Positions 8,782 through 33,896 of a stretch of DNA of 64,000 nucleotides are shown piece after piece. The stretch lies in contig SCQQ01000042.1 of NCBI GenBank assembly GCA_004299095.1, positions 1-64,000 of the forward strand. Direction: 5' to 3'. The notes below the pieces were generated by a model that saw only the letters and a list, made by a program, of their open reading frames with translations, had not been told where the DNA came from and ran no database searches. Both the position numbers and the translations under genes were made by a program. Each line of letters opens with the position of its first letter. Position 1 is the stretch's first letter. Source of the stretch: Burkholderiaceae bacterium (lineage in GTDB: Bacteria > Pseudomonadota > Gammaproteobacteria > Burkholderiales > Burkholderiaceae_C).

Positions 8782-8821
8782 ATCTGCCTATTCACGACAT
8801 GCATGCTGCGTACAATGCGCG

Positions 8822-8837
8822 GTATTACGCGTAATAC
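8822..8837. promoter_or_regulatory. 16-bp perfect palindrome GTATTACGCGTAATAC, candidate TA operator
   Basis: 11 bp upstream of the antitoxin ATG at 8848. Confidence 0.7.
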
Positions 8838-8847
8838 AGGCCGCATC

Positions 8848-9111
8848 ATGTCCACCAATACCACTCCAACAGCCGCTCCAACCCGCACCATCAACGTACG
8901 CCTCCCTTTGGAGATCTACGACCAGCTTGAAGAACTGGCCCGCGCGACGGCGCGCACCAAGACCTTCGTGACGCTGGAAGCGCTGACGAGCTACCTCGCG
9001 TCGCAACGCTGGCAGGTGCAAGACATCGAAGCAGGGCTTGCCGAGGCTGACCGTGGCGAGTTTGCCACTGAGGCTGAAGTCGCCGCCGTTTTTGCACGTT
9101 ATGGCGCGTGA
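8848..9111 (+). CDS. Ribbon-helix-helix (CopG/RelB-like) antitoxin
   Basis: TINVRLPLEIYDQLEELARATARTKTFVTLEALTSYL. Confidence 0.8.
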   Translation: MSTNTTPTAAPTRTINVRLPLEIYDQLEELARATARTKTFVTLEALTSYLASQRWQVQDIEAGLAEADRGEFATEAEVAAVFARYGA

Positions 9112-9373
9112 GTTGCGCTGGACGCGCCGCGCACTGACCCGCCTGGACGAAATCGCAGCGTATATCGCGCAAGACAACCCGGCGCGCGCAACCAGCTTCG
9201 TTCGGGAGCTGCGCGCGCGGCTCGACGTTTTGCGGGAGCATCAACTCGGCATGCCCGGCAGCGTTTACGGCACCAAAGAGTTGGTGCTGCACAAGCACTA
9301 CGTCGCGGTGTATCGGGTGGTTGGCAACGAGGTTCATATCCTGACCGTGCTGCACACCGCACAAAAACGTTGA
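9101..9373 (+). CDS. ParE/RelE-family toxin
   Basis: MARELRWTRRALTRLDEIAAYIAQDNPARATSFVRELRARLDVL...YRVVGNEVHILTVLHTAQKR. Confidence 0.88.
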   Translation: MARELRWTRRALTRLDEIAAYIAQDNPARATSFVRELRARLDVLREHQLGMPGSVYGTKELVLHKHYVAVYRVVGNEVHILTVLHTAQKR

Positions 9374-9389
9374 GCGAGCAACCGGAGCT

Positions 9390-10517: not shown

Positions 10518-10521
10518 GGCG

Positions 10522-11565: not shown

Positions 11566-11615
11566 TCTTTTCTCCCAAAACGTTCATCATTGCACCGTGC
11601 ACGGACAAATGGCTT

Positions 11616-12818: not shown

Positions 12819-12864
12819 TTTAGATCAAACCGCCCCATCGTAAGTTTATTATATTATAAACAAG

Positions 12865-14232: not shown

Positions 14233-14390
14233 AATATGCGTCAGGGCGATAGATACGTGGCGAGGATCAAGTTGGTATAGGCGCTGTCGGTTTAGCGTTT
14301 CTGGATCAATGATGATACTTATTTAATCAAAGCCAATGCTGTTTTCGCTTCCTCCAAAGCGATACTTGACATATCGAAATCGAGTTTGAA

Positions 14391-15525
14391 TTAGTACGCG
14401 AAACTAACATCTCGAATATTCTCGTACCAGATGAGAAGGCGCTGTTGCAATTCGTGGGCGATCTTTGCGGCTGCATTGCCAGCTCCATACGGTCGTATGT
14501 CATGACCTCGATTACCGAGTGCCGCATTAATAGCCGTGGCCACGCTTCCCCCATCGACGGGCGGAGCCAATCTGTTCCAGCCGGATTGGACCAACTCTAC
14601 CCACTCGGTCTCATCTCTGAGCGTAACGCAAGGCACTTGGTGGAAAAATGCCTCTTTCTGCACGCCACCGGGATCGGTGGCGATCAACGCGGCAAATTTC
14701 TCCAATTGCACCATATCGAGATAGCCTACCGGGTCGATCAGGTGAACTTGTTGGGCGAGCGTATCGAGCAGCCGCGATTGGACAAGTACGCGGCGCGTAC
14801 GCGGGTGCAGTGGCCAGACGACTGGCAGTTGGCGCGCGGTGGTTTGCAGCGCCTCGATGATGGCGGCCATACGCTCTGGATGGTCAGTTTTTTCAGCTCG
14901 GTGAACGGTGGCAAGGACATAAGCCCTGGCGATGCAACCTCAGGCTCGCCATCAAGCCGGTACCCGCTTGCACGCGCAGGCCGTGGTGCAGCGCTACGTC
15001 ATACATCATCACGTCACCCACTGGAACGATTTGCTCGTCTGCAATGCCTTCGTGCCGGAGGTTGCGCGCAGCGAGCTCGGTGGGTGTGAACAGCCAGCAC
15101 GAAATGCGGTCAGCGAGGATGCGGTTCACCTCTTCGGGCATCGCCATGTTGAAACTGCGGAGGCCCGCTTCTACGTGCGCGACAGGGATGCGCAGCTTGG
15201 CTGCCGCCAATGCGCCGGCCAGCGTGGAATTGGTGTCGCCATAGACCAGCACGGCATCTGGCTTCTCGCTCAAAAGCACGGTTTCGACCGCTTCCATCAT
15301 GCGGCCCGTCATAGCGCCGTGGTTACCACCGTGAATATCCAGGAAATAGTCAGGTTTGGCCATGCCCAGTTCCGCAAAGAACACATCCGACATATTGGCG
15401 TCGAAGTGCTGGCCCGTGTGCACCACCACTTCGGTAATGTCCGCGCGTTTGGCGAATTCGGCGGACACAACGCCGGCTTTGATGAACTGCGGGCGCGCGC
15501 CGAGGACGGTGAGGATTTTTAGCAT
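14391..15525 (-). pseudogene. UDP-N-acetylglucosamine 2-epimerase family (WbpI-like) gene split by a frameshift
   Basis: N-part MLKILTVLGARPQFIKAGVVSAEF...MASLRLHRQ (14893..15525) and C-part AYVLATVHRAEKTDHPERMAAI...(to 14391) are in different frames; slip near CCC at 14924-14926. Confidence 0.8.
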
Positions 15526-15561
15526 GGGGATTCGTAATGCCTGATAACGTGACGACTCAAT

Positions 15562-17511
15562 TCAGTTCGCAACTTCGGCTAATGGGGAAACCACTGGTGC
15601 GGTCTTGGTGCATTGCGGTTCCACATCAATGGACAACACTCCAGTCCACCAGCGCGCGTAGTTCACCCAGCGCCACACTTGCCAATCAAACCGCCTCTTT
15701 CCGGACACGATGGCATCGAACGCGCCGATCAACTGGGCATGATTCAGGAACGGGATAGTGCGCGCTGCTTTCAGCCAGCCGCGATACTGCGGCGCGAGTT
15801 GAATGAACCAGTTGCGCTCAGGCGTGGCAAAGCCGATCTTGTCGCGCCGGTCAAGGATGGCGTCGGGCACGATCCCGCGCATGGCGGCGCGGAAAACGTG
15901 CTTGGTCTGGCCGGCATCGGAGATCAGGTAGTTTTCAGGCAGTGCGTACAACAGCCGACACAGTTGGGGCGTGAGGAACGGCACGCGGCTTTCAATGGCA
16001 AACGCCATGGAATTGCGGTCGCCGTGGCGCAGCAGGCTGGGCAAACCCTGGTGCTGCAGGCTGCGCCCGAGAAATTCGATCAGCCTGCGACCGCGGGCAC
16101 CGGGTGCGCGCAGTGACTTAGGCCGCACGAAGCGCACGCCAGCATCCAACAGTACGCCGGCGTTCAACCACGCGGGCTCCGCGCCGCGCCCATCGAGGCG
16201 ATAGAGCGCGTCGTACGCGCCATCGGGCAGCAGCGCGCGCGCGAGTGCGGCGGCGGTTTGCTTGCCGCTGGCCGAATGCCAGCGCGACCAACGCATGAGA
16301 AAGCGCGCTGCCTCCATGACGTGTCCGCTTTGCACCAAGCTCATGGCACGCTGGCCCGGATAGCCGGCGTAGCCAGCCAACAGCTCATCGGCACCTTGCC
16401 CGTCAAGCGTGACCGTGATGCCACTCTCACGCGCAAGTTGGAAGACACGACGCTGCGCGTAAATGCTGGTGCTGCCGAAAGGCTCGCCCTGCGCGCACAC
16501 GACGGTGTCGATGTCACGCGCGAGATCGTCGGCATTGGCAAAAACCTTGTGCGGCTGCGCGTCAACTTGTTGATTAACGAGATCGACCCAGCGGTCTTCA
16601 GAAATGGCCGCATCGGAGGCGATGTAGCTGAAGGTGTGGATCGGCAAGTCGGGCTCCAGGTGTCGAATGGCGCAGACCACAGCGGACGAATCTATGCCAC
16701 CCGAAAGTGCCGCGCCCAGCGGCACGTCGCTGCGCAATTGGCGGTGCACGTTTTGCAGGAATTCCGCACGCACCGCCTCGGCTGCATCGTCGAACGAGAG
16801 CGTGGAAGTTTGCTCCACATTGGGCGTCCACCACTGGCGCAACGCGGAGATGTTGCTGGTCGTCACATCCAACGTGAGGACGTGGCCGGGCATCAAGTGG
16901 CGCACGCCATCGACGAAAGTGCGCTCGCTACTGTCGTAATCGCCGTGCACGAGGTAGTCGTAGGCGCGTTGCAGGTCGGGCCCCGGCCGCACGGGTAGCA
17001 GGGCCAACATGGCCGGCAGCTCCGACGCAAAGAAAAATCCGCCGTCCTGCGACGCGTAGAAGAGCGGCTTGATACCGAACGGGTCGCGTGCGCATGTGAG
17101 CGTGCCGGCGGCTTTGTCCAGCAATGCAAACGCGAACATGCCGTCGAGTTTTTCCAGGCATGCCTCGCCCCAATGCGCCCATGCGTGCAGCAGCACTTCA
17201 GTATCAGAGTTGGTGCGAAACACCACTCCGAGCTTCCGCAGGTCGTCACGCAATTCGATGTAGTTGTAGATCTCACCGTTGAAGATCAGCACGTAGCGGT
17301 CATCTTGAGACGCCATGGGCTGGTTGGCCGCGTCGTTCAGGTCGATAACAGACAGACGTGCATGACCCAGCCAAACTTCACGCCCGCCCAGCGGGAAGTT
17401 TTGCATTTCCTGGTGATCTGGGCCGCGATGGCGGAGACTACAGAGCCCCGCATCGATTCGGCTCTCTATCGGCAAACCTTGAACGGCGACAGCACCAATC
17501 AGACCACACAT
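15562..17511 (-). CDS. asnB: Asparagine synthase (glutamine-hydrolysing)-type amidotransferase
   Basis: MCGLIGAVAVQG (N-terminal Cys), LRHRGPDHQ, FNGEIYNYIELR, LSGGIDSSAV. Confidence 0.92.
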   Translation of the reverse strand: MCGLIGAVAVQGLPIESRIDAGLCSLRHRGPDHQEMQNFPLGGREVWLGHARLSVIDLNDAANQPMASQDDRYVLIFNGEIYNYIELRDDLRKLGVVFRTNSDTEVLLHAWAHWGEACLEKLDGMFAFALLDKAAGTLTCARDPFGIKPLFYASQDGGFFFASELPAMLALLPVRPGPDLQRAYDYLVHGDYDSSERTFVDGVRHLMPGHVLTLDVTTSNISALRQWWTPNVEQTSTLSFDDAAEAVRAEFLQNVHRQLRSDVPLGAALSGGIDSSAVVCAIRHLEPDLPIHTFSYIASDAAISEDRWVDLVNQQVDAQPHKVFANADDLARDIDTVVCAQGEPFGSTSIYAQRRVFQLARESGITVTLDGQGADELLAGYAGYPGQRAMSLVQSGHVMEAARFLMRWSRWHSASGKQTAAALARALLPDGAYDALYRLDGRGAEPAWLNAGVLLDAGVRFVRPKSLRAPGARGRRLIEFLGRSLQHQGLPSLLRHGDRNSMAFAIESRVPFLTPQLCRLLYALPENYLISDAGQTKHVFRAAMRGIVPDAILDRRDKIGFATPERNWFIQLAPQYRGWLKAARTIPFLNHAQLIGAFDAIVSGKRRFDWQVWRWVNYARWWTGVLSIDVEPQCTKTAPVVSPLAEVAN

Positions 17512-17566
17512 GCGCAATCCCCGACCCAATACCATGCGCCGCAATGCTGACGCTTTCCTGCAAAAA

Positions 17567-18880
17567 TCATTTAACTACCTTGCACCCTAAACGACGTTCC
17601 ACGACGACGATCAGGACCCCCGCGTAAATGATATAACCGACGAACCCGGCGGCTGAAATGGCCATGACGGATTCCACGAACGAATAGCCCCCGTGTTTAG
17701 CCACGAAAAATGCAGCCACCACGAGCAATACGGCGCACACGTCATAAACAAGTTTGTATTCCTGCGCTTGCATAACCGATAGCGTCCGGCTCAATGGACT
17801 AATAACCAATGCGGCATAAAGCCACGGTGCAATGCAAACTGCAGCAATTCCGGCTTCGTGCCATCGGCCCCCAAAAATCCAAGGGACCAGCGAAGGCGCC
17901 AACACCATCACGACGAACATCGGAACCAAACCAATGAGCGCCAGTTTTCGCAGTAACGTATAAAAGAGGGTTCGCGCGCGCGAATGATCGTCAGACCGTA
18001 AAGCATTCGCCAATTCCATCTGAAAAATGTCTGCAACTGCGCTTCCAATTTGACTATTAGGAATCCCAACGATCATACGCGCGAGCCCGAACCACCCGGC
18101 AGCCGTCGCCCCGTGGAGCGTTGCCACTATCGGCAACGGCAAAGTCAAACCGAGCAGATCAATCCATGCCGACGGCGTTTCGAAAACAGGGAATTTGATG
18201 AACGCACGCCCCGATTGCAGCAATTCACGGAAGCCGATCCGGGCGGGCTGGCTTGGAGCAAAGTGTGCGCGGACTCTTCGCGAAAGTCTGAGCATCGCGC
18301 CCCAAGCGCCGGCCAGCTCGGCTGCAAACAGGCCCGCAACGCCGGCGCCCAACACTCCAAGAGCGATACGCGCTCCTGCGTTTGCGCTAGAACGCGCGAT
18401 CGCCGCCCCGGTGATTTCTTTGACCATCCCCGCGCGTAACGCCCATGAGCGGTACGCCATGAAAACACCATATCCCATCAGGATCGGGACAACGGCCAAG
18501 GGCGCCCAGTTGGGAAGCAATTCAAATCCCAGCACGCTGGCATGTTGCAGCGCCCAAAGAATTGGAAGACCCAAAACCGACATAACCAACACCAAAATCA
18601 CTGCCAGGCGGTGGACGTAGTGAGATTGCGTGTCACTTTCGGCAATCAACAGCGCATATTCATACCGTAATGAAAGAGTTCCGGCCCAAAATCCGAAGAA
18701 GGAAAGAAACAATGAAATCACGCCGATCTCCGCTGGCGTGTAGACCCGTGTAACTATTGGCATAGCGCAAATCGTGACAATTTGCGCAACGGCAGTTCCG
18801 CTGACGAGAGTAATGATGCCGCGTGCAACCCGGCCCTTGGGCAGCCTCGCCGCGATGCGTGCTTGTAGTGCCACGAACAT
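17567..18880 (-). CDS. Wzx-like polysaccharide flippase/translocase
   Basis: GIITLVSGTAVAQIVTICAMPIVTRVYTPAEIGVISLFLSF. Confidence 0.87.
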   Translation of the reverse strand: MFVALQARIAARLPKGRVARGIITLVSGTAVAQIVTICAMPIVTRVYTPAEIGVISLFLSFFGFWAGTLSLRYEYALLIAESDTQSHYVHRLAVILVLVMSVLGLPILWALQHASVLGFELLPNWAPLAVVPILMGYGVFMAYRSWALRAGMVKEITGAAIARSSANAGARIALGVLGAGVAGLFAAELAGAWGAMLRLSRRVRAHFAPSQPARIGFRELLQSGRAFIKFPVFETPSAWIDLLGLTLPLPIVATLHGATAAGWFGLARMIVGIPNSQIGSAVADIFQMELANALRSDDHSRARTLFYTLLRKLALIGLVPMFVVMVLAPSLVPWIFGGRWHEAGIAAVCIAPWLYAALVISPLSRTLSVMQAQEYKLVYDVCAVLLVVAAFFVAKHGGYSFVESVMAISAAGFVGYIIYAGVLIVVVERRLGCKVVK

Positions 18881-19974
18881 CAGGCAGGGACAGTCACTGC
18901 TTGCGCCGCGACCACGATTCCAGTAACAGTTGATTCCCCCAGATACGGATGTATCGGCAAGCTCATGACCCGCTGCGCGATGGCATCACCCACGGGCAAT
19001 TCCGCGCTCGCATCCGCGACGGCAGGCTGGCGATTCAGAGGAATCGGGTAATGCACCGCTGTGGGAATGCCAACGGCTTTCAACTTTTGCTGAATGGCGT
19101 CGCGCTGTTTCACCTGGATGGTGTATTGCGCCCACGCGCTGGTGTTATGCGCCTCGACGTAGGGCGTGGTAGTAATGCCAGCTTGATTGAACAAGCGCGT
19201 GTACGTTTGTGCAACTTGCTGCCGGAGCTGGAGTTCTTCGTCGAAGATTTCGAACTTGACCAGCAAGACGGCGGCTTGCAGCGTATCCATGCGACTGTTC
19301 ACACCGACGCGAATATGGTGATAGTGCCGGTCTTGGCCGTGGCGGGCGATCTGGCGAATGATTTTGGCGAGTTCGTCATCACTGGTAAAAATGGCGCCGC
19401 CGTCGCCGTAACAACCCAGCGGCTTGCTGGGGAAAAAGCTGGTGCACGCGATGCTGCTGAGGTTGCCGCTTTTGCGCCCCTTGTAGCTGGCGCCGAAGCT
19501 CTGTGCGGCGTCTTCGACGACCGCGATACCGTGCCGCGCGGCGATGGCGTTGATGGCATCCATGTCGGCGCACTGGCCGTAGAGCGACACCGGCACGATG
19601 GCCTTGGTGCGCGGGGTGATGGCGGCTTCCAGCAGCGCTGGATCCAGGGTGTAGGTGCGCGGGTCGACATCGACGTACACCGGCTTCGCACCGAGCAGGG
19701 CTACCGTTTCGGCCGTGGCGATGTAGGTGAATCCTGGCGTGATCACTTCGTCGCCCGGGCCTATGCCCAGCGCCATTTGCGCGATTTGCAGCGCGTCGGT
19801 GCCGTTGGCGCAGGTGATGCAGTGCTTGCCGCCCACGTAGGCCGCGAGCTTTTCTTCCAGCTCGGCCACTTCCGGGCCAAGAATAAATTGCCCATGAGCC
19901 AGCACGCGCGCAATGCCCGCGTCGATTTCAGTCTTGAGGCGCTGGTACTGTGTTTTGAGGTCAATGAATTCCAT
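18880..19974 (-). CDS. DegT/DnrJ/EryC1/StrS aminotransferase (WbpE/WlbC-like)
   Basis: MEFIDLKTQYQRLKTEIDAGIARVL; EDAAQSFGASYKGRKSGNLSSIACTSFFPSKPLGCYGDGGAIFT. Confidence 0.93.
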   Translation of the reverse strand: MEFIDLKTQYQRLKTEIDAGIARVLAHGQFILGPEVAELEEKLAAYVGGKHCITCANGTDALQIAQMALGIGPGDEVITPGFTYIATAETVALLGAKPVYVDVDPRTYTLDPALLEAAITPRTKAIVPVSLYGQCADMDAINAIAARHGIAVVEDAAQSFGASYKGRKSGNLSSIACTSFFPSKPLGCYGDGGAIFTSDDELAKIIRQIARHGQDRHYHHIRVGVNSRMDTLQAAVLLVKFEIFDEELQLRQQVAQTYTRLFNQAGITTTPYVEAHNTSAWAQYTIQVKQRDAIQQKLKAVGIPTAVHYPIPLNRQPAVADASAELPVGDAIAQRVMSLPIHPYLGESTVTGIVVAAQAVTVPA

Positions 19975-19982
19975 GATGTATC

Positions 19983-20564
19983 TCAGTTTGGCAGCCGGGC
20001 AACGCTTGCGTCGTCGAGAACGTAGCGCGCACCCGTGTGCCCGCAGACAGCCTCGCCACGGCCGGACACGGGAAGATCGAGTCGTTCGCCAAATTCGCTC
20101 ATCCAGCCGATTTGGCGTGCTGGCACGCCGACCATGAGGGCGTAGGGTTTGACATCCTTGTTGACCACCGCGCCCGCGCCGATGAAGGCGAACTCGCCTA
20201 TCGTCACGCCACAGACGATGGTGCAGTTGGCGCCCAGCGTCGCGCCTTTCTTGACCAGCGTGTAGCGGTATTCATCCTTGCGCTCGATCAGCGAGCGCGG
20301 GTTGTAGACGTTGGTGAACACCATGCTCGGGCCGCAGAACACGCCCTCTTCCAGCGTGACGTTGTCATAGACGCTGACGTTGTTTTGCACCTTGCAGCGG
20401 TCGCCGATCACGACCCTGTTGCCGACGAACACGTTCTGGCCCAGCGATACGCCTTGGCCGATGCGGGCGCCCGCGCACACGTGCACGAAGTGCCAGACAC
20501 GCGAGCCTTCGCCGATTTGCGCGCCGTCATCGACGATGGCGCTGGCGTGCTTGAAGTAGCTCAT
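19983..20564 (-). CDS. WbpD/WlbB-like N-acetyltransferase (left-handed beta helix)
   Basis: Hexapeptide-repeat protein in a WbpA/B/D/E-type gene order. Confidence 0.9.
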
Positions 20565-21511
20565 GCGCCGCGCAGCCGCGCCAGCAGCGGGTGAAAGATT
20601 CCGGGGTTGGCGACAATGGGCGCGCTGCGGATGATTTCCACCGTCTGAACGGCCGCGCGGTTGTCTTCCAGACCATAGCCTTTGCCTTCCAGCACGCGCT
20701 GGTAGCTCTGCGTGTGCAGGTCGGTGAAGCCGCCGGAAAACTCCAGTTCTTCACCTTCCACGTCGATGCTGCGGTAGGTGCGCTGCGCGCCCTGCACCGC
20801 GTTTTCAGGCAAATTGCCGGCGTCGATGGACAAGAACCAGCAGACGCGCGCACGCTCGTATTCAAGATAACCGGCTGCGGTTTTGTCATCCCGATAATGC
20901 ACTTCATTTCTCTTGAGTTCGCCAAAAATGAAATGGAGCATGTCGTAGAAATGCACGCCGATATTGGTGGTGAGCGTGCCGGATTTCCTGTCGTCGCATT
21001 TCCACGACTGCAAATACCATTTGCCGCGCGACGTCATGTAGGTGAGCTTGACGTCAAACACTTTGTCCTTGGGCGCGGTTTGCACTTTTTCGCGCAGCGC
21101 AAGGATCGATGGATGCAAGCGCAATTGGAGAATCGAATTGACGCGCGCACCGTATTTTTTCTCGTACGTGCCCAGTACGTCCAAGTCGGCTGTGGTCAGC
21201 ACCAGCGGTTTTTCGCAAATCACGTCGATGCCGTTTTTCAGCGCGAACTTCATGTGCGGCAAATGCATGTAGTTCGGCGTGCAGATCGAGATGTAATCGA
21301 GTTTCTTGCCCTGGAGCTTCTGGTCTTCGACGTAAGCGGCGAACGCTTCGAATTCGGTAAAGAACTCGGCTTCAGGAAAAAAGCTGTCCATGATGCCGAC
21401 CGAATCGGAGGTATCCATGGCCACCGCCAGATTGTTGCCGGTGTCCTTGATGGCACGCAGGTGGCGCGGCGCGATGTAACCAGCCGTACCAATGAGAGCG
21501 AAATTTTTCAT
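20561..21511 (-). CDS. Gfo/Idh/MocA-family oxidoreductase (WbpB/WlbA-like)
   Basis: [66 protein letters not shown]. Confidence 0.92.
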
Positions 21512-21525
21512 TTGATGTCGTTATC

Positions 21526-22821
21526 TCACAGTCTGAATACGTCGAAGCCCGCGGCAGCGGCCTGATGGCGGTCGTACAGGCTTTTTACATCCGCCAGCAC
21601 GGGGCGCTTGCCACGGCAGTAGCTGCGCAACGCATCCACCGACAAATCACGGAACTGCTTGTGGCCGACCGCGACGACGACAGTGTCCACGGGGTGCGTG
21701 GCGTCCACCGTTTCCAACTCGATGCCGTAGTGGTGTTCCACTTCGGCGGCATCGGCCCAGGGATCGGCCACGGCCACCTGCGCGCCCCATTTCTGCAGTT
21801 CGCGCACCACGTCGACCGCTTTGCTGTTGCGGATGTCGGGGCAGTTCTCCTTGAACGTGATGCCAAGCACGCCGATGCGGCAGCGCGGCACGTCCATGCC
21901 CGCTTGCAGCATGCGCCGGATGGTGGTGCGCGCCACGTAGCGCCCCATGTTGTCGTTGATGCGGCGGCCCGCCAAGATGACTTGCGGGATATAGCCCACT
22001 TGCTCCGCCTTGTGCGTGAGGTAGTACGGATCCACGCCGATGCAATGGCCGCCGACCATGCCGGGGCGGAACGGCAGGAAGTTCCACTTGCTGCCGGCCG
22101 CTTCCAGCACTTCCAGCGTGTCGATGCCGAGACGCGCAAAGATGACGGAGAGCTCGTTGACCAGCGCGATGTTCAGGTCGCGCTGCGTGTTTTCGATGAC
22201 TTTGGCCGCCTCGGCCACTTTGATGCTGCTGGCTTTGTGGGTGCCGGCCTTGACGATCTCGCCGTAAAGCCGATTCACCGCCTCGGCCGCTTCGGGCGTG
22301 CTGCCGCTGGTGATCTTGCGAATCGTGGTGAGCGTGTTCACCTTGTCCCCAGGGTTGATGCGCTCGGGGCTGTAGCCGCAGAAAAAATCCTGGTTGAACT
22401 TGAGGCCACTGGCGCGTTCCAGCTCGGGCACGCACACTTCCTCTGTCGCACCGGGATACACGGTGGATTCGTAAATCACGACGGAGCCGGGTTTCAATGC
22501 CGGCCCCACGGTTCGACTGGCGCTGATGAGCGGCTGTAAATCCGGGCGTTTGGCGTCGTCGATCGGCGTGGGTACCGTGACGATGAAAACCTGGCAACTC
22601 TTCAAGTCCTTCGGTTCGTGGCTGAAGCGCAGTTGCTTGGCATTTTTCAACTGCTCCGGGCTGCACTCCAGCGTGCGGTCGTGGCCGTTTTCAAGCTCCG
22701 CTATTCGGTCTGCCTTGACGTCAAAGCCGAGAACCGGGCGATGTTTGCCGAATTCGACCGCCAACGGCAGGCCGACGTAACCCAGGCCGACGATGGCCAA
22801 GGGCGTGTTAGTGAGATCCAT
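21526..22821 (-). CDS. UDP-GlcNAc 6-dehydrogenase (WbpA/TviB-like nucleotide-sugar dehydrogenase)
   Basis: LAIVGLGYVGLPLAVEFGKHRPVLGFD; GYSPERINPGDKVNTL; GHCIGVDPYYLTHKAE. Confidence 0.93.
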   Translation of the reverse strand: MDLTNTPLAIVGLGYVGLPLAVEFGKHRPVLGFDVKADRIAELENGHDRTLECSPEQLKNAKQLRFSHEPKDLKSCQVFIVTVPTPIDDAKRPDLQPLISASRTVGPALKPGSVVIYESTVYPGATEEVCVPELERASGLKFNQDFFCGYSPERINPGDKVNTLTTIRKITSGSTPEAAEAVNRLYGEIVKAGTHKASSIKVAEAAKVIENTQRDLNIALVNELSVIFARLGIDTLEVLEAAGSKWNFLPFRPGMVGGHCIGVDPYYLTHKAEQVGYIPQVILAGRRINDNMGRYVARTTIRRMLQAGMDVPRCRIGVLGITFKENCPDIRNSKAVDVVRELQKWGAQVAVADPWADAAEVEHHYGIELETVDATHPVDTVVVAVGHKQFRDLSVDALRSYCRGKRPVLADVKSLYDRHQAAAAGFDVFRL

Positions 22822-22860
22822 AAAGAAAGTGAAATAAATGGCGCCGACGCGCCGAGTTGA

Positions 22861-23256
22861 TTAAGGATGGTCAAACCAGTCTGTGTCCGGCTGGGAGAGC
22901 GTACGTTCATTGGCGTCTCGCGCATCCGCCAACGCCTCGCGCCGCAGCGCCTCGATTTCGCCCGCCAACGCCTTGTATTCCGCCTGCTTGCGCGCCAGGA
23001 AGTGCACGGTGGCAAGGCTTTTGGCGGCAATGCCCGCGGGTGTGAGCTGGTAGAGGTAGGCGCGTTTGTTCTGGCTGTTCCTGAAATTCTCGGTCTTGAC
23101 GTAGCCCTTGTCGAGCAGTGCCCTGAGGCAATAGTTGATCTTGCCCAGGCTCATGCCCAATTCGGCGGCCAGCTCACGCTGCGGGGTGGACGGGTTGTCC
23201 GCCAGGCGGCGCAGCAGGATGTAGCGAGCCTCGTCGGTCAGGATACGTTCAGGCAT
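22861..23256 (-). CDS. MarR-family EPS-associated transcriptional regulator
   Basis: LTDEARYILLRRLADNPSTPQRELAAELGMSLGKINYCLRALLDKGYVKTENFRNSQNKRAYLYQLTPAGIAAKS. Confidence 0.85.
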   Translation of the reverse strand: MPERILTDEARYILLRRLADNPSTPQRELAAELGMSLGKINYCLRALLDKGYVKTENFRNSQNKRAYLYQLTPAGIAAKSLATVHFLARKQAEYKALAGEIEALRREALADARDANERTLSQPDTDWFDHP

Positions 23257-23703
23257 TGAACGCGGATTGTAACTACGCCGCGAATCGCCAGAGCAACAGC
23301 CGTCCACGACCGTCAACGACACTGACCGTGCGAGGTCCGGGGAGCTGGTCCGGCGTACTCTCGCTGCCGGCCCAGCCGTCTTGGCCGGCCATTTCCAGCG
23401 GCAGCGCCTCATCCACCCGGGAGGCCGTGTGCAGCGTGAAGCGCGGCCTGCACCAATCGGCTGAGCGCACTTGGCCGCCACGCCGGCCACCGGTACGGCC
23501 CAGGGAAAAGTCCTCGAAACCCGCCGTGATCAAGCCGGATTTCCCACGGCCAGCAGACCCCTCGGATAGTTGACGGATTTCGTGCGGATTCGACCCGGCG
23601 GCAATAACCCTGTCGGTAATACACTGGTTTCCGACATGCATTCATGGGTATGCCGTTATGCCCTTGAGACATGTTCGACATCCAAAAAATCAGGAGGCCA
23701 CTC

Positions 23704-26700
23704 ATGGACATGAACCGGCGCCAGTTTTTCCGCGTGAGCGGGGCTGGATTGGCCGCGTCGAGCCTGGTGGCGCTGGGCTTCTCGCCCACCGCTGCCCTTG
23801 CCGAAACCCGGCAATTCAAGCTCACACGCGCATCCGTATCCCGCAGCACCTGCCCGTACTGCTCCGTCAGTTGCGGACAACTCATCTACACCTTGGGCGA
23901 CAAGGCCAAGAACGCCCGCCCCGCAGTGATTCACATTGAAGGCGATCCGGATCATCCCGTGAGCCGCGGCTCGCTTTGCCCCAAGGGCGCCGGCGTGATG
24001 GACATGCTCACGTCGCCCAACCGCGTCAAGTACCCCGAAGTGCGCGAGCCGGGCGGCAAGGAATGGAAGCGCATCAGTTGGGACGAGGCGCTCACGCGCA
24101 TCGCCAAGCACATGAAGGCCGACCGCGACGCCAACTTCGTCACCCAGAACGAAGCCGGCACCACGGTGAACCGCTGGCCCACCACCGGTTTCCTGATGTG
24201 CAGCTCGGCTTCCAACGAATCGGCGTATCTCTCGGTCAAGGTCGCTCGCGCCCTTGGCATGATTGCGATCGACACACAAGCACGCGTTTGACACGGGCCG
24301 ACGGTGACCAGTTTGGGTCCCACATTCGGTCGCGGTGCGATGACGAACTCTTGGAACGATATCAAGAACACTGATCTTGTAATCGTGATGGGCGGCAATG
24401 CCGCCGAGGCCCACCCGGTCGGTTTCAAATGGGTGATCGAGGCCATGCACACGCGCGGAACGAAGTTGATTTCGATCGACCCGCGCTTCAACCGCACGTC
24501 GGCGGTCGCTGACCTGTACGTCCCGCTGCGCAACGGCACCGACATTCCGTTCCTGGGCGGCATCATCAACTGGCTGCTCGCCAACGACAAGATCCACCAC
24601 GATTACGTCAAGTTCAACACTGACGCCACGTTCCTGCTGAAGCCCGACTTCAAGTTCGACGGCGGCTTCTTCAGCGGCTACAACGAAGCCACGCGCAGCT
24701 ACGACAAGTCCACCTGGGGCTACCAGTTGGGTGCGGACGGCTACGTCAAGGTCGACGACAGCCTGCAGGACCCGCTGTGCGTCTACCAGCAACTGAAAAA
24801 GCACTACAGCCGCTACACGCCCGAGATGGTGGAAAAGGTCTGTGGCACGCCCAAGGACAAGTTTCTGAAGGTGTGCGAAATGCTCGGCCCGATGTCGGCG
24901 CCCGACAAGACCAGCACCATCCTCTACGCGCTCGGCTGGACGCAGCACTCGGTCGGCAGCCAGAACATCCGCACCATGGCCATGATCCAACTGCTGCTGG
25001 GCAACATGGGCCGGCCGGGCGGCGGCGTGAACGCGCTCCGCGGCCACTCCAACGTGCAGGGCGTGACCGACATGAACGCCTACGCCGAGGTGTTCTCGGG
25101 CTACCTGAACGCGCCGATGGACACCGACACCAGCTACCAGAGCTACGTGAAGCGCAACACGCCGGTGGCGCTGCGCCCCAACCAGTTCAACTACTGGAAC
25201 AACTTCTCCAAGTTCTGGGTGAGCCTGATGAAGTCGTACTACGGCCCGGCCGCGACCAAGGAGAACAACTGGTGCTTCGACTGGGTGCCCAAGTTCCCGG
25301 GCGGCTACGACGTGATGCACATCTTCGAGTTGATGCACCAGGGCAAGATGCACGGGTTCCTCACGCAGGGCTTCAACCCGCTCGCCACCGTTCCCAACAA
25401 GAACAAGCTGTCGGCGGCGCTGATGAAGCTGAAGTACCTGGTCTCGATCGACCCGCTGAACACGGAAACGGCGGAGTTCTGGAAGAACTCGGGCAAGGCC
25501 AACGACGTCAAGCCCGAAGACATCCAGACCGAAGTGTTCCGCCTGCCGGCGGGCGCCGACGCCGAGGAAGAAGGCACGTTCACCAATTCCAGCCGCGTGC
25601 TGATCTGGAAAGAGCGGGCTCTGCCGCCGCCCGGAGAAGGCAAGGTCGATTCGGAAATCGTGGCGCGCCTGTTCCTCAAGCTGCGCGAGCTCTACGCCAA
25701 GGAAAAGGGTGCGTTCCCGGATGGCCTCCAGCATCTGACCTGGGACTACGTCATCCCCGAGGTGCCGAGCGCCGACGAGCTGCTGAAGGAATACAGCGGC
25801 AAGGCGGTATCCGACATCGCCGCGCCGGCTGATCCCGCCCACCCTGACGCGGCGCTCAAGCTACTCTACAAGAAGGGGCAGCAGCTCGCCGGCTTTGCGT
25901 CACTCAAGGACGACGGCTCCACCTCGTGCGGCAACTGGCTGTATTGCGGCGCCTGGAGCGAGGAAGGCAACCTGACCAAGCGGCGCAGCCTGGAAGACCC
26001 GTCGGGCCTGGGCGTGTACCAGCACTTCGGCTATTCCTGGCCGGCCAACCGCCGCATCATGTACAACCGCGCCAGCGCCGACAAGAACGGCAAGCCGTGG
26101 GCCGAGAACAAGAAGTACGTGTGGTGGGACGGCAAGAAGTGGACCGGCTACGACGTGCCCGACATGAAGCTGGACGCCGCGCCCGACATCGGCATGGGCT
26201 CTTTCATCATGACGGCCGAAGGCATTGCGCACTTGCACGCGGTGGCCATGGTCGATGGCCCATTCCCCGAGCATTACGAACCGTTCGAATCGCCGATAGA
26301 GAAGAACCTGTTCCATCCCGACAACCCGAAAGCCAAGAGCAACCCGTGCGCGCGCGTCTTCAAGAGCGACATGGACGCTTTCGGCAAGCCGAGCGAGTTC
26401 CCGTACACGGCCACCACCTATCGCCTGACAGAGCACTTCCACTACTGGACGTCGCATTCGCTTCTGAATGCCATCGTGCAGCCGGCGCAGTTCATCGAAA
26501 TCAGCGAAGAGCTGGCCAAGGAGAAAGGCATCAAGAAGGGCGACCAGGTGAAGGTCAAGAGCAACCGCGGAGAAATCGTGGCCGCGGCGGTGGTCACCAA
26601 GCGCATCAAGCCGTTCATCATCGACGGCAAGCCGGTGCACCTGGTGGGCGTACCGATCCACTGGGGCTACACCGGTGTCACCAAGCACGGCTACATCGCC

Positions 26701-26784
26701 AATGCGCTCACGCCGTTCGTGGGTGACCCGAACGTCCAGACGCCCGAATTCAAGGCGTTCCTCGTCAACATCGAGAAGGTGTAA
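23704..26784 (+). CDS. fdoG: Formate dehydrogenase major (alpha) subunit, selenocysteine-containing, Tat-exported (FdnG/FdoG-type)
   Basis: [11 protein letters not shown] Tat signal, CPYCSVSCG cluster, ...TQARV-U(TGA 24289-24291)-HGPTV...; frame continues to 26784 without other stops. Confidence 0.95.
24303..24321 (+). promoter_or_regulatory. Candidate bacterial SECIS hairpin
   Basis: GG-U-GACC-AGUUUG-GGUC-CC starting 11 nt after UGA: bulged U and GU-containing apical loop as in E. coli fdhF/fdnG SECIS. Confidence 0.8.
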
Positions 26785-26786: not shown

Positions 26787-27731
26787 ATGTCCGACATGCA
26801 ATCAGGCAACGTGGTCGCCATCTCGGCCACGACGACGCCCACGGCCCAGGTCCGTGACGACATCAAGCCGGTCGCCAAGCTCATCGACATTTCCTCCTGC
26901 ATCGGCTGCAAGGCCTGTCAGGTGGCGTGCATGGAGTGGAACGACCTGCGCGACGAAGTGGGCGAGTGCAACGGCACCTACAACAACCCGCCGGACCTCT
27001 CGGCTGAAAGCTGGACGGTGATGAAGTTCTTCGAGGTCGAGCCCGAGGAGGGTCATCTCGAATGGCTGATTCGCAAGGACGGCTGCATGCACTGCGAGGA
27101 CCCGGGCTGCCTCAAGGCCTGCCCCTCGCCCGGCGCGATCATCAAGTACGGCAACGGCATCGTCGATTTCGTGCACGAGCAGTGCATCGGCTGCGGCTAC
27201 TGCATCAAGGGCTGTCCGTTCGACGTGCCGCGCCTCTCGACCAAGGACAACAAGGTCTACAAGTGCACCTTGTGCGTCGACCGGGTCGACGTCGGGCTGG
27301 AGCCGGCTTGCATCAAGGCCTGCCCCACCGGCGCGCTCACCTTCGGCACCAAGGACGAAATGATCGAGGTGGCCGAAGAGCGCATCGTCGGCCTGAAGGA
27401 ACGCGGCTTCAAGGACGCGGGCCTGTACAACCCCGAAGGCGTGGGCGGCACGCACGTGATGTACGTGCTGAAGCACGCCGACCGGCCCGAGCTCACCGGC
27501 CTGCCCCGGAACCCGACCATCAGCCCGATGGTGAAGTTCTGGAAGGGCGCAGCCAAGCCGATCGCCCTCGCGGCCGTGGGCGTGGCCGCGCTCGCGGGCT
27601 TCTTCCACTATGTCAAGCGCGGTCCCATCGAAACGCCGGAGAGCGACGAGCAGTACGTGGAAGACGACCAGCCGAACGTACTGCCCGAACAGCACGCCGA
27701 GCACCACGACAACGACCGGCCCAACGCCTGA
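26787..27731 (+). CDS. fdoH: Formate dehydrogenase beta (iron-sulfur) subunit
   Basis: Ferredoxin cysteine motifs [38 protein letters not shown]-terminal TM helix. Confidence 0.94.
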
Positions 27732-27743: not shown

Positions 27744-28382
27744 ATGAAAAAACTCTACATCGAGCGTCACAGCAGCCGCATGCGCGGCAACCACTGGGCC
27801 GTGGCCATCCTGTTCTTTCTGGCCGGCCTGTCGGGTTTTGCGCTGTTCCATCCGAGCCTGTTCTTCTTCACCCACCTGTTCGGCGGGCCGCAGTGGGACC
27901 GGGTGCTGCATCCCTACCTGGGCGTGCTGATGTTCCTGCTGTTCCTGGCCATGTTCTTCCTGGCCGTCCGCTCCAACGTCTGGCGCAAGGAAGACAGCGA
28001 GTGGCTGGAAGGCGCACCCGGCATGGTGTTCCACGGCGACGACTCCAAGATCCCGCCGGTCGGCAAGTTCAACGCCGGCCAGAAGCTGGTGTTCTGGCTG
28101 TCGGCGATATGCCTGGTGGTGCTGCTGCTCACGGGGCTCACGTTCTGGCAAGCCTGGTTTGCCGCCAGCTTCTCGATCGAGCTGCAGCGCGTGGCGCTGG
28201 TACTGCACGCCATTGCGGCGTTCGTCTTTGTCCTCACCATCCTGGTGCACATTTACGCCGCGATCTGGGTCAAGGGCACGTTCCGTGCCATGATCCGCGG
28301 CAACGTGAGCGCCGGCTGGGCCAAGCACAACCACCCCAAGTGGTACGCCGAGCAAATGGAAGGTCGCGCGCCCAAAGCCTGA
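27744..28382 (+). CDS. fdoI: Formate dehydrogenase gamma (cytochrome b556) subunit
   Basis: Membrane protein with conserved His, downstream of beta subunit. Confidence 0.92.
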   Translation: MKKLYIERHSSRMRGNHWAVAILFFLAGLSGFALFHPSLFFFTHLFGGPQWDRVLHPYLGVLMFLLFLAMFFLAVRSNVWRKEDSEWLEGAPGMVFHGDDSKIPPVGKFNAGQKLVFWLSAICLVVLLLTGLTFWQAWFAASFSIELQRVALVLHAIAAFVFVLTILVHIYAAIWVKGTFRAMIRGNVSAGWAKHNHPKWYAEQMEGRAPKA

Positions 28383-28420: not shown

Positions 28421-28460
28421 GCTGCCAGGGATTCGCCTCTCTGGCAGCCATTTTTATTTT
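28421..28460 (+). terminator. Intrinsic-terminator-like hairpin between gamma subunit gene and fdhE
   Basis: GCTGCCAG-(12 nt)-CTGGCAGC followed by CATTTTTATTTT. Confidence 0.65.
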
Positions 28461-29454
28461 GAAACCCAGCACCAACCCCACCCGCTTCCACGATCCGCAA
28501 GAGATCCTGAAACGTGCCGACGCCAAAATCCCGCCGCTGATCCTGCCCGAACCCCGCACGGTCTTCGCCGAGCGCGCGCTGCGTCTGCGGCAACTCGCGG
28601 CCGGCCACGCAATGCACGATTTCCTGCTGATGCTGGCGGTGGTCTGCGACGCCCAGCACGAGCGGCTGCAGCATTACCCCGACGTGCCGTTGCCGACCGA
28701 CGAGCAGATCGACCTGGCCCGGCTGTCCGGCTATCCACTCCTGAATACCGCCAACTGGCAGCGCGACCCGGTCTGGCGCAGCGAACTGCGAGCGCTGCTC
28801 GGCCAAGCCTTGGACAAGCTGCCCGCCGATAGTCCGGCGCGCAGCGGCGTGCAGGCCGTGATCGACCTGCCTGACGACGCGCTGGAACAGCAGGCCGACC
28901 GCTTGCTGGCCGGCATCACGCTCAGCCTCGACATAGCCGCGGCGCCGCTGATCGCGGCCGGCCTGCAGCTTTACTGGACGCATCTGGTCACGGCCACCCA
29001 AGCCGCGCACAAGCACCCGTTCGACATGCCGTTCGAGCCCAACCACTGCCCCTGCTGCGGCAGCCTGCCCACCGCCAGCATCACCAAGGTGCGCGGCCAG
29101 CTCGAAGGGCAGCGCTACCTGCACTGCGCGCTGTGCAGCGCCCAGTGGCACTACATGCGCGTGAAATGCGCCAACTGCGGCAGCATCGAAGGCATCCACT
29201 ACCAGGCGCTGCAGCATGTGTCGCAAGACGAACCGTCGGAAGAGCGCGCGGCCGTCGAAGCCGAAACCTGCGACCAGTGCCACCACTACCTGAAGATCAT
29301 GCACATGGTGAGCGACACCAACGTCGACCCGATCGCCGACGACCTGGCCACGCTCACGCTCGATCTGCTGGTCTCGGACGCCGAATACCGGCGCTACGGC
29401 ACCAATTTGCTACTGCTCTTCGGCGACGACGAAAGCGCGGCAAAATTGCCGTGA
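28459..29454 (+). CDS. fdhE: Formate dehydrogenase accessory protein FdhE
   Basis: CPCCGSLPTAS, LHCALCSAQWHYMRVKCANCGS, CDQCHHYLKI. Confidence 0.92.
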   Translation: MKPSTNPTRFHDPQEILKRADAKIPPLILPEPRTVFAERALRLRQLAAGHAMHDFLLMLAVVCDAQHERLQHYPDVPLPTDEQIDLARLSGYPLLNTANWQRDPVWRSELRALLGQALDKLPADSPARSGVQAVIDLPDDALEQQADRLLAGITLSLDIAAAPLIAAGLQLYWTHLVTATQAAHKHPFDMPFEPNHCPCCGSLPTASITKVRGQLEGQRYLHCALCSAQWHYMRVKCANCGSIEGIHYQALQHVSQDEPSEERAAVEAETCDQCHHYLKIMHMVSDTNVDPIADDLATLTLDLLVSDAEYRRYGTNLLLLFGDDESAAKLP

Positions 29455-30920
29455 TGGTGCCTTCCGCCGCGCTCTCCAACCCCGCTTCAAAGACCACGCC
29501 GCCCGCACGCAACGGCGTGCAGCCACAGGATCTGCCGTCAGTCGACACGCTGCTGCGGGCGGCGCAAATCCAACCACTGGTCGCAGAGAACGGCCACACG
29601 CTGGTTGCGAGTGAAACCCGCGCGCTGCTGGCGGAATTGCGCAAGAGCGCAATGGCAGGCCATCTGACGGCCACCCAAACCACCCCTGAAGCGCTGGCCG
29701 CACGGCTTGCTGCCCGCGTCGACGCCCGCTTGGCGCCGCGCCAGCGCGCCGTCATCAACCTGACCGGCACGGTGCTGCACACCAACCTCGGACGCACGCT
29801 GCTGCCCGATGCGGTGCTGGCGCACATACAGCGGGTGCTCGCGCACCCGAGCAACCTGGAATACGACCTCGCAAGCGGTGTGCGCGGCGAGCGCGACGAC
29901 CTGATCGAGCCGCTGCTGTGCGAACTCACCGGCGCCGAAGCAGCCACCGTGGTCAACAACAACGCCGCGGCCGTGCTGCTCACGCTGGCAGCGCTGGCCG
30001 CGGGCAAGGAAGTGATCGTCTCGCGCGGCGAACTGGTGGAAATCGGCGGCTCCTTCCGCCTGCCCGATGTGATGCAAAGCGCCGGCGCCCGGCTGGTCGA
30101 AGTGGGCACCACCAACCGCACCCACGCACGCGATTACGAGCGCGCCATCACCGCCAACACCGCGGCGCTGATGAAAGTGCACACCAGCAATTACGCGATC
30201 TCGGGCTTCACTGCATCGGTCACAGAAAGCGAACTCAGTGCCATCGCCCATGCGCACGGCCTGCCACTCGTCTCGGACTTGGGCAGCGGCGCGCTGGTCG
30301 ATTTGAGCGCGTACGGCCTGCCGCGCGAGCCCATGCCGCAAGACATGCTGCGCGCCGGCTGCGACGTGGTGACGTTCAGCGGCGACAAGCTGCTGGGCGG
30401 CCCGCAAGCCGGGCTGATCGTCGGCAAGAGCGAGTGGATCGCGCGCATCCGCAAACATCCGATGAAGCGCGCACTGCGCAGCGGCAAGCTCATGATCGCG
30501 GCGCTTTCGGCCACGCTGCGGCTGTACTTGCGGCCCGAACGCCTCGCGCATGACTTGCCCACGCTGCGGCTCCTGATCCGGCCGGTTGATTCGATCGAAG
30601 CCACCGCGCGTGCGTTGCAACCGGCGCTGCAAGCCGCACTGGCGTCGCGATTCACCGTGGATATCGTCGCGCTGCAGAGCCAGATCGGATCTGGTTCGCT
30701 ACCGGTGGAGCGCCTGCCTTCGGCCGGTCTCGCCATCATTCCCGTGCAGGAAAAAGGCAGCGGCCACGCACTTACCCAACTGGCCGAGGCGTTCCGCGCC
30801 CTGCCCATGCCGGTGATCGGCCGCATCAACGACGGCCGTCTCCTATTCGATCTGCGCTGCCTGGAAGACGTGACGCTCGTCACCCGGCAACTGGACGCGC
30901 TCCGGCTTGCGGCCGCATAA
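29454..30920 (+). CDS. selA: L-seryl-tRNA(Sec) selenium transferase
   Basis: [36 protein letters not shown]. Confidence 0.95.
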
Positions 30921-30922: not shown

Positions 30923-32833
30923 ATGATCATCGGTACCGCCGGGCACATCGACCACGGCAAGACCACGCTGGTGCGCGCGCTCACCGGCGTGGACGCCGAC
31001 CGATTGCCGGAAGAGAAAAAGCGCGGCCTGACGATCGAGCTCGGCTACGCCTTCATGGACACGCCCGCGGGCGAGCGCATCGGCTTCATCGACGTGCCGG
31101 GCCACGAAAAGCTGGTGCACACCATGGTGGCGGGCGCCAGCGGCATCGACTTTGCGCTGCTGCTGGTCGCGGCCGACGACGGCCCCATGCCGCAAACGCG
31201 CGAGCACCTGGCGGTGCTGTCGCTCCTCGGCATCGCCCACGGCGCCGCGGTCATCACCAAGAGCGACCGCGCCACGCCGGAACGCATCCAGGCCGTCCAC
31301 GCCGAAATGCAAAGCCTCATGGCGGGAACGCCACTGGCCGCCGCGCCCATCCTGACGGTGTCGGCGCAAACCGGCGACGGCGTTGCGGCGCTGCGTACGC
31401 TGCTGCTGGACGCGGCCAAGACCTACGCCGAACAGTCGGCGCGCGCCAATCGGGCCCAAGCCTTTCGCCTCGCCATCGACCGTGTGTTCACGCTGGCCGG
31501 CGCCGGCACCGTGGTCACCGGGACGATCCACGCGGGCAGCGTGCACGTGGGCGACGAAGTGGCGCTCAGCCCGCCCGACAACGGCGCCATTCGCAGCGCC
31601 CGGGTGCGCAGCCTGCACGCCCAGGACCAGGCCGTGCAGAGCGCGCACGCCGGACAGCGTTGCGCGGTGGCGCTGGTCGGATGGGCGCGCGACGACGTCA
31701 GCCGCGGCCAATGGCTCGTGGATCCGCGCATTGCGCTGGCCATCGACCGCATCGACGTTCGTCTCACGCTGTGGCGCGACGCGGCGCGGCCGCTGCGCTC
31801 CGGCGCGCACGCGCAGTTGCACCTGGGCACGCAGCACGTCAACGCGGCGATTGCGTTGCTGGATGCAAACACGCTGCCCGCGGGCGCCGACGCGCTGGCG
31901 CAACTGGTGCTCGATGCGCCCATCGGCGCCTGGCACGGCGAGCGCTTCATCCTGCGCGATCCGGCCGCGAACAAGACTGTGGCTGGCGGCACGGTGCTGG
32001 ATCCGTTTGCCCCCGCGCGTTACCGCCGCACGCCGCAGCGCCTCGCGGAGCTGGCCGCGCTGCAATTGCCCGATATCGCGCAACGCGTGAGTGCCCTGCT
32101 CGAGCACGCGCCCTGGGGCCTCGACCTGGACCATGTGCGGCGCGCGCAAGGCGTGACAGCGCTCTCCGCCGCGTCTGATGACCAGGCCCTCGCCGCGGGC
32201 ACGTACGCCTTGGGTGCGACCCAGGCAGCCGCACTGGAAACTGCCGTTCTACAGGTGCTCAAGAAACAGCACGACCAGCAGCCTGACGAACTGGGCCCAG
32301 ACCGCGCGCGCCTGCGCCGCCTGGCCGCGCCGCGGCTGGCAGCGCCGCTCTGGAACGCGCTGCTGGACCGGCTGGTGGCGCGCGGCCAGATCCGCGCACA
32401 TGGCCCGGTGGTGCACCTGCCGGAACACGACGTGCAGCTTTCGGCCACCGAAACGCGGCTGGTCGAAAAAGCCATGCCGGCGCTGCTGCAAGCGGATTTC
32501 TCCGGCGCCTGGGTGCGCGATCTGGCCAAGACCTGCGGTGAGACCGAAACGCTGATGCGCACCACGCTGGCGCGCCTGGCGCGCCGCGGCGAGCTGTTCC
32601 AGATCGTGAAGGATCTGTATTACGCGCCGGACACCATCCAGCGCCTGGCCGCGCTGGTGCGCGCAGCCGCGGCCACGCACGACGGTGAATTCAAGGCCGC
32701 CGTGTTCCGCGACGCCACCGGCCTCGGTCGCAAGCGGGCCATTCAGATTCTGGAATACTTCGACCGCGTCGGCCTCACGCGCCGCGTGGGCGAAAACCAC
32801 AAACTGCGCGCGGAGTGCGTGTTGTTTTTGTAG
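30923..32833 (+). CDS. selB: Selenocysteine-specific elongation factor
   Basis: [47 protein letters not shown]-terminal winged helices. Confidence 0.95.
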
Positions 32834-32848: not shown

Positions 32849-32944
32849 GGAGGGGCAACCATCCCGGTGGATGGGCCGGGCTTCAAACCCGGTGGGTGGC
32901 GCCAAGCGCCGCTGGGTGGGTTCGACTCCCATGCCCTTCCGCCA
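32849..32944 (+). tRNA. selC: tRNA-Sec (anticodon TCA at 32883-32885), CCA encoded
   Basis: 8-bp acceptor stem GGAGGGGC/GCCCTTCC, CCGGG-CTTCAAA-CCCGG anticodon arm, long variable arm, GGTTCGACTCC T-arm, GCCA end. Confidence 0.95.
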
Positions 32945-33045: not shown

Positions 33046-33504
33046 ATGACACCCGACCTCGCCCTGCCCTCCGACTGGTACTACTGGCCCGAAGACCAAG
33101 TCTGGGCGAACGTGCACGACGACGGCAGCGCGACGGTCGGCATCACCCAGCTCGGCATCCAGCTTTCGGGCGAGATCTACATGTGCCGCGCCAAGAGCCT
33201 CGGCACCGAAGTGGCCCAGGGCGGCACCGTGGCGGTGGTGGAACTGGCCAAGGCCATCGTCGCGGTCAAAAGCGCCGTTGCTGGCACCGTGATCGAGCGC
33301 AACGAAACGCTGGCTGATCAACCGTGGCGCGTGCACCGCGACCCGTACGGCAAAGGCTGGATCGCCCGCTTGAAATTGAAGGACTTCAAGGCCGACGAAC
33401 CGCAGCTCCTGCGTGGTGCCGCCGCGGTCGCCGCCATGCAGCAGTACGCGCGCGAGCATGAGCGGGAATTCATTCCGGCCACCACGCCCGGACAAAGCGC
33501 ATGA
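33046..33504 (+). CDS. Glycine cleavage H-like (lipoyl-domain) protein
   Basis: WANVHDDGSATVGITQLGIQLSGEIYMCRAKSLGTEVAQGGTVAVVELAKAIVAVKSAVAGTVIERNE. Confidence 0.85.
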   Translation: MTPDLALPSDWYYWPEDQVWANVHDDGSATVGITQLGIQLSGEIYMCRAKSLGTEVAQGGTVAVVELAKAIVAVKSAVAGTVIERNETLADQPWRVHRDPYGKGWIARLKLKDFKADEPQLLRGAAAVAAMQQYAREHEREFIPATTPGQSA

Positions 33505-33896
33505 GTTTCGTCGACGGCAGCGTCGCCGGCATCGCGCTCCTGCTCTGGTCCGCCGATCCCGGAACGCCGGAGCGCCTGGCCACACCGTTTTTCCACGCCG
33601 CCGCCGCCGCCGCGATGGAATGCGAAGTGGAAATCTATTTCACCGCCGGCAGCGTGCGCTTGCTGGTCCCCGGCGTGGCGGCGGGCCTGCACGCCAGCCC
33701 GCTGTTCGCCAAGACCATCCTCGACAACATGTGCGAGGCCGTTGACCACGGTGCGCGCCTCTATGCCTGCACCGACGCGCTCAACGCCCACGGCATCGAC
33801 CCGAAAAAGCTCATCCCAGAATGCTCGGGCCCGGGCGGCGCGGTGCAGTTCATGGCGCGGGCGATGGACCCGCGCTGGCGAACTTTGGTGTTCTGA
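33501..33896 (+). CDS. DsrE/DsrF-like family protein
   Basis: ATPFFHAAAAAAMECEVEIYFTAGSVRLL...ARLYACTDALNAHGIDPKKLIPECSG; overlaps GcvH-like gene by 4 bp. Confidence 0.75.
   Translation: MSFVDGSVAGIALLLWSADPGTPERLATPFFHAAAAAAMECEVEIYFTAGSVRLLVPGVAAGLHASPLFAKTILDNMCEAVDHGARLYACTDALNAHGIDPKKLIPECSGPGGAVQFMARAMDPRWRTLVF

Follow-up and report, generated by a model that had tools for sequence, protein, structure and literature searches.

Two overlapping genes encoding a lipoyl-carrier protein (GcvHL) and a DsrE-like sulfurtransferase (DsrEL) were identified at the end of a selenocysteine (Sec) and formate dehydrogenase (FDH) gene locus of a Burkholderiaceae bacterium. The pair is linked to Sec decoding far above chance, and its distribution among genomes is complementary to that of FdhD. 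It is close to an even call that the two proteins form a persulfide/lipoyl relay for maturation of the Sec-containing FDH FdoGHI, in which they, rather than FdhD, would sulfurate the FDH cofactor.

Organization of the Sec-FDH locus

The window (the whole stretch of DNA that was analysed, 64,000 nucleotides) contains the genes in the order fdoGHI-fdhE-selA-selB-tRNASec with the pair at the end, all on the same strand. The features are as follows.

23671 to 26784, plus strand: fdoG, catalytic subunit of the Sec-containing FDH; a single reading frame when TGA is read as U
24289 to 24291, plus strand: in-frame TGA of fdoG, Sec207; homologues carry one TGA
26787 to 27731, plus strand: fdoH, FDH beta subunit (TIGR01582, 434.7 bits)
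27744 to 28382, plus strand: fdoI, FDH gamma subunit (TIGR01583, 171 bits)
28459 to 29454, plus strand: fdhE (TIGR01562, 238.8 bits)
29451 to 30920, plus strand: selA (TIGR00474, 599.1 bits)
30923 to 32833, plus strand: selB (TIGR00475, 489.6 bits)
32849 to 32944, plus strand: tRNA-Sec (ARAGORN), which adjoins the pair in most relatives
33046 to 33504, plus strand: GcvHL, GcvH/LbpA-like lipoyl-carrier protein, 152 aa (Pfam GCV_H, H-protein fold, conserved in 44 pairs)
33250 to 33252, plus strand: codon of Lys69 of GcvHL, predicted lipoyl attachment site
33501 to 33896, plus strand: DsrEL, DsrE-like sulfurtransferase, 131 aa (Pfam DsrE, DsrE/F fold)
33768 to 33770, plus strand: codon of Cys90 of DsrEL, predicted persulfide site

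The reading frame of GcvHL extends from the ATG at 33046 to the TGA at 33504 and that of DsrEL from the ATG at 33501 to the TGA at 33896, with an overlap of 4 bp (ATGA). GcvHL starts 101 bp past tRNA-Sec, and a cupin gene lies on the other side of the pair. Both reading frames, the overlap and the tRNA agree with the preliminary description, which had reported a GcvH-like gene overlapping a DsrE-like gene by 4 bp after tRNA-Sec.

Upstream of the FDH locus, the window contains a polysaccharide-biosynthesis cluster (7124-23490, minus strand) encoding wecB-like epimerases, an asparagine-synthase-like protein, a sugar aminotransferase, a nucleotide-sugar dehydrogenase and a MarR_EPS regulator. An FdoG match in another genome (G178:C8:159177-162263, partly in L117) contains two in-frame TGA codons, explained by a second Sec or by an error of assembly. 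In many relatives, whether or not they carry the pair, a gene between selA and selB encodes a flavoprotein akin to sulfide dehydrogenase/type III SQR (L034:4608-6014; equivalents in L025, L028-L030, L033, L035, L037, L038, L099, L110, L112, L113 and L116); it is absent in the window.

Sequence and structural features of GcvHL and DsrEL

GcvHL scored 96.5 bits against Pfam GCV_H (cut-off 22.2) and DsrEL scored 32.2 bits against Pfam DsrE (PF02635; cut-off 22.7). When the homologous pairs were aligned, K69 of GcvHL and C90 of DsrEL were conserved in 44/44 and 44/44, respectively. The lysine is present in the motif VELAKAIVAV and aligns with the lysine that is lipoylated in E. coli GcvH (ESVKAAS), whereas the cysteine sits in RLYACTDAL and is also kept in distant Pseudomonas-like forms of DsrEL. 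The lipoylation-type lysine and the cysteine singled out in the preliminary description are thus both invariant among these pairs.

The AlphaFold model of GcvHL (mean pLDDT 90) has an H-protein fold, and its Foldseek matches are H-proteins. In this model, K69 occupies a beta-turn between strands 61-67 and 71-75, where H-proteins carry lipoate. The model of DsrEL (mean pLDDT 92) gave 2qs7, 3mc3, 3pnx and DsrEFH as the best Foldseek matches in the PDB; a PDB search with the DsrEL sequence returned no significant match. DsrEL belongs to the DsrE/DsrF family (PF02635), as it passes the gathering score, has the DsrE fold and contains the conserved cysteine. No obvious signal peptide was found in the sequence of either protein.

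The majority of the 44 pairs have the 4-bp overlap or nearly abutting genes. Two loci (L021 and L022) contain about 1.7 kb between the two genes and a third (L221) has them split around selA-selB; both genes are kept in each case. The conservation across 44 related pairs indicates that GcvHL and DsrEL are genuine genes. Another cysteine of GcvHL, Cys47 (window 33184-33186; motif YMCR), is kept in 41/44 aligned GcvHL proteins and is absent from canonical GcvH and from the more distant Sec-linked forms. It is possibly a second redox site.

Relationship to H-proteins and sulfur-oxidation carriers

GcvHL has the fold and lipoyl-lysine position of GcvH, but forms a separate clade and is not encoded with gcvT or gcvP. 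It scored 72.6 bits against a cut-off of 115.85 (TIGR00527) and 101.1 bits against a cut-off of 117 (PRK01202), below both GcvH equivalog thresholds. A canonical gcvT-gcvH-gcvP operon with its own gcvH is present on another contig of the window genome (L141). GcvHL is therefore considered a second, divergent H-protein. The preliminary description had called it a lone H-protein without gcvT/gcvP, which holds for its immediate surroundings but not for the genome. A role in glycine cleavage was rejected because of the separate gcvTHP operon and the GcvH cut-offs, and a DsrEL partner is not expected in that system.

The closest homologues of the pair found outside Sec loci are the LbpA-DsrE-LbpA sets of sHdr loci (L042 and L192). 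In the sHdr system, a GcvH-like carrier with a lipoyl lysine and a DsrE-family partner are likewise encoded in one gene set, as for LbpA2 of Hyphomicrobium denitrificans (PMC6067878). GcvHL grouped with LbpA and was split from canonical GcvH at 100% in a tree that does not separate a single from a multiple origin of the Sec-linked proteins. It thus resembles LbpA in being a GcvH-like carrier with a conserved lipoyl lysine that stands apart from canonical GcvH, and differs in its motif (ELAK in GcvHL, ESGK in LbpA). Where its loci were read, the pair is linked to Sec and FDH genes and has no hdr, tusA or dedicated lipoate-ligase gene beside it. The arrangement hdrC1B1A-hyp-hdrC2B2 was likewise not seen in these loci, in agreement with the earlier remark that Hdr genes are lacking here, and sHdr-type sulfur oxidation was rejected on this ground. 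Although its proteins are homologous to GcvH and to the LbpA and DsrE proteins of sHdr systems, it is extremely improbable that the pair is part of sHdr-type sulfur oxidation or supplies the H-protein of glycine cleavage.

Co-occurrence with selenocysteine genes

Carriers in the family were defined as genomes with a DsrE protein above 100 bits among 301 genomes. The selA gene was present in 29/29 family carriers, compared with 85/301 genomes overall (p 2e-18, uncorrected for kinship). Within the same genus, selA was detected in 14/14 pair carriers and in 1/15 non-carriers (p 1.9e-7). Outside the family, all 14 carriers of the pair (G354, G403, G405, G457, G480, G494, G522, G549, G551, G563, G599, G672, G676 and G750) are also selA-positive.

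In other Burkholderiales, the DsrE matches scoring 70-175 bits fall into three groups, namely the true pair, the DsrE of sHdr loci, and a stand-alone DsrE that frequently lies beside sensor kinases; only matches next to GcvHL were counted. Genes resembling hybrid sensor kinases adjoin the conserved stand-alone form in several other families of Burkholderiales (L164, L168, L169, L171, L176, L177, L182 and L185). Three Sec-less genomes (G467, G826 and G783) contain weak DsrE matches only and not the pair. In G147, another Sec-less genome, all that is left of the pair is a DsrE remnant of 43 residues (L157:2813-2941), as if the pair had decayed after loss of Sec. The absence of the pair from G016 is uncertain, as the contig ends in selB.

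Most copies of the pair adjoin selB-tRNASec. In G015, G022, G750, G480 and G563 the pair and selA are on different contigs, and in Brachymonas-type genomes they are about 18-30 kb apart, so physical linkage alone is insufficient to explain the association with Sec. The mostly physical linkage and the relatedness of the genomes would also suit a passenger of a mobile Sec-FDH cassette with an unrelated role. Such a passenger is very improbable, because the pair is kept in these unlinked genomes, K69 and C90 are invariant, and Sec-less relatives contain no pair or only a remnant. The preliminary description had proposed a gene-neighbourhood survey, with equal frequency of the pair in genomes lacking Sec genes as the outcome that would speak against its reading; instead, all carriers were selA-positive, including the unlinked cases. 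Every genome read with an intact pair is Sec-decoding, which makes the intact pair a useful marker.

Complementary distribution with FdhD

In E. coli, FDH activity depends on FdhD, which transfers sulfur from IscS to the cofactor Mo-bisPGD (PMC10609526). The loop cysteines are missing in some FdhD proteins, and fdhD is absent from some FDH-containing organisms (PMC10609526).

FdhD was present in 52/52 genomes that contain fdoG without the pair, and the CxxC loop was found in 24/24 of those read. The 39 pair genomes of the family comprise 14 without any FdhD homologue (as judged by one profile search), 13 with only a divergent FdhD lacking CxxC, and 12 with a CxxC-containing FdhD, which in several cases lies next to fdsA. 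The FdhD-less pair genomes include the window genome (99.5% complete), two single-contig genomes (G011 and G257) and a two-contig genome (G076). Fisher tests by genome gave p values of 1.4e-6 for complete absence of FdhD and 4e-14 for absence of the high-scoring FdhD class, and the p value was 3.8e-6 after collapse to genera, the only step by which kinship was handled.

Presence of the pair and presence of FdhD also alternate within two genera. G137 contains the pair and no FdhD, whereas G228 contains FdhD and no pair; their FdoG proteins are 79% and 78% identical, respectively, to that of the window. A second swap of this kind was found between G257 and G033. An FdhD encoded adjacent to fdoG contained CxxC in 3/3 pair-less genomes read (G033, G068 and G117) and lacked it in 4/4 pair genomes read (G064, G086, G196 and G259). 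The pair without FdhD was also identified in four genomes of another family (G494, G522, G549 and G599), and a CxxC-containing FdhD was present in 6/14 pair genomes outside the family. The coexistence of the pair with a CxxC-containing FdhD, both there and in the 12 family genomes, shows that the two are not simply mutually exclusive.

The divergent FdhD proteins form a second class, which scores 105-140 bits, lacks CxxC (13/13 family members) and is often encoded near a different, fdhAB-like FDH or near fdoG (L262-L273 and L282-L289). Assignment of these weak matches to FdsC was considered and rejected, since those with surroundings read adjoin the second FDH, other genes or fdoG.

The same coexistence with CxxC-containing FdhD, together with the tie of the pair to Sec-FDH and the flavoprotein related to sulfide dehydrogenase between selA and selB of many relatives, would suit a function in redox protection or repair. 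DsrEL and the lipoyl protein would then work in addition to FdhD and, under oxygen, maintain FdoG by reduction or re-sulfuration of its Sec or Mo-sulfido site. This function appears quite improbable, as it does not account for the total absence of FdhD in some genomes, and FdoG is exported whereas GcvHL and DsrEL have no obvious signal peptide.

The pair resembles FdhD (TIGR00129; PMC10609526) in its proposed job of bringing sulfur to the FDH cofactor, its association with fdo operons and its complementary distribution. It differs in consisting of two small proteins and a lipoyl arm, whereas FdhD is one cofactor-binding dimer. Membership of the FdhD family calls for its profile (TIGR00129), a nucleotide-binding fold and the CxxC loop; neither GcvHL nor DsrEL matched the profile.

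Sulfur delivery to FDH versus selenium delivery

The DsrE cysteine and the lipoyl arm could instead serve Sec-tRNA synthesis by carrying perselenide to SelA or SelD, as suggested for YedF. YedF, a SirA/TusA-DsrE fusion linked to selD (TIGR03527; PMC5322559), is likewise a DsrE-family protein linked to selenium genes. Selenium delivery draws support from the usual place of the genes beside tRNA-Sec and from the DsrE domain of YedF (PMC5322559), and the presence of selA in all carriers is in accord with it. DsrEL differs from YedF in lacking a SirA domain and in having a lipoyl partner, and it gave no match to TIGR03527 (membership, over 110 bits) at E values up to 1. YedF scored above the cut-off in 0/40 genomes tested, so its possible substitution for the pair in pair-less Sec genomes is uninformative. 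SelD was present in 22/22 genomes tested. G022 is the only genome in which it was noted close to the pair: mrp-selD and the pair are about 6 kb apart there (L040:771-3051 and 8850-9750), and selA is unlinked from the pair. This proximity also favours a selenium carrier.

The pair is missing in 56/85 selA-positive genomes of the family and is therefore not required for Sec synthesis in general. It was also found in 0/8 selA-positive genomes without fdoG (p 0.03). G480 and G563 belong to the same genus and share the order fdhE-PepSY protein-GcvHL-DsrEL-tungstate-type transporter, which fdoGHI precedes in G480. In both, selA is on another contig; the pair thus stays with the FDH genes and not with selA. 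The complementarity with FdhD is left unexplained by a selenium carrier, which on these counts is unlikely. The preliminary description had proposed delivery of selenium or sulfur to FDH or to Sec synthesis. Of that proposal, a carrier pair for sulfur or selenium with a tie to the Sec/FDH locus is retained; sulfur delivery to FDH fits better than selenium delivery for Sec synthesis, which is its weaker half.

In the FDH operon of G480 and G563, the pair is flanked by the PepSY-type membrane protein and the tungstate-type ABC transporter (L214:6043-10485 and L215:6955-9355). The carrier gene of G551 follows fdhE, with tungstate- and molybdate-type transporters downstream. Three genomes (G165, G204 and G214) have fdoG with a sense codon at the Sec TGA and contain neither selA nor the pair, but are too few to separate the two roles.

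Proposed sulfur relay and its significance

Since many carriers lack FdhD, the standard delivery protein, the pair may deliver the sulfur needed by Sec-FDH. In the proposed relay, Cys90 of DsrEL would pick up sulfane sulfur as a persulfide, and the sulfur would be exchanged between Cys90 and the Lys69-bound lipoyl arm of GcvHL. This arm would shuttle sulfur by analogy with the proposed role of lipoate-binding proteins in the sHdr pathway, and the Mo/W-bisPGD cofactor of FdoG would receive its sulfido ligand from the relay ahead of Tat export. In genomes with no FdhD, or with one that lacks CxxC, the pair would stand in for the sulfurtransferase part of that protein; in the others, the pair and FdhD would work side by side. 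Lipoylation, persulfide formation, the direction of transfer and the acceptor are all putative steps. That the lipoyl-lysine arm and the DsrE persulfide jointly install the catalytic sulfido ligand in Mo/W FDH, having replaced FdhD, is a plausible though tentative reading.

The relay is supported by the invariant K69 and C90 in the right folds, the co-occurrence of the pair with Sec-FDH even when unlinked, its presence in fdoGHI-fdhE operons near tungstate transporters and away from selA, its absence from the eight selA-positive genomes without fdoG, its distribution complementary to FdhD with the swaps inside genera, and its closest homology, to LbpA and DsrE proteins encoded in sulfur-oxidation loci. 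Coexistence with CxxC-containing FdhD (12/39 family genomes and 6/14 outside) counts against it. The usual place beside tRNA-Sec and the zero pairs in Sec-less genomes also suit a selenium role. Cofactor binding is a further function of FdhD, and one not known for the GcvHL/DsrEL pair. A search of open-access papers found none on GcvH, DsrE and selenocysteine or on FdhD, DsrE and formate dehydrogenase.

For the missing sulfur donor of FDH, the pair offers a concrete candidate. If the relay is confirmed, protein-bound lipoate would have a new role in metalloenzyme maturation, and maturation of molybdo- and tungsto-enzymes would join its few known jobs. The relay could also aid heterologous production of CO2-reducing formate dehydrogenases.
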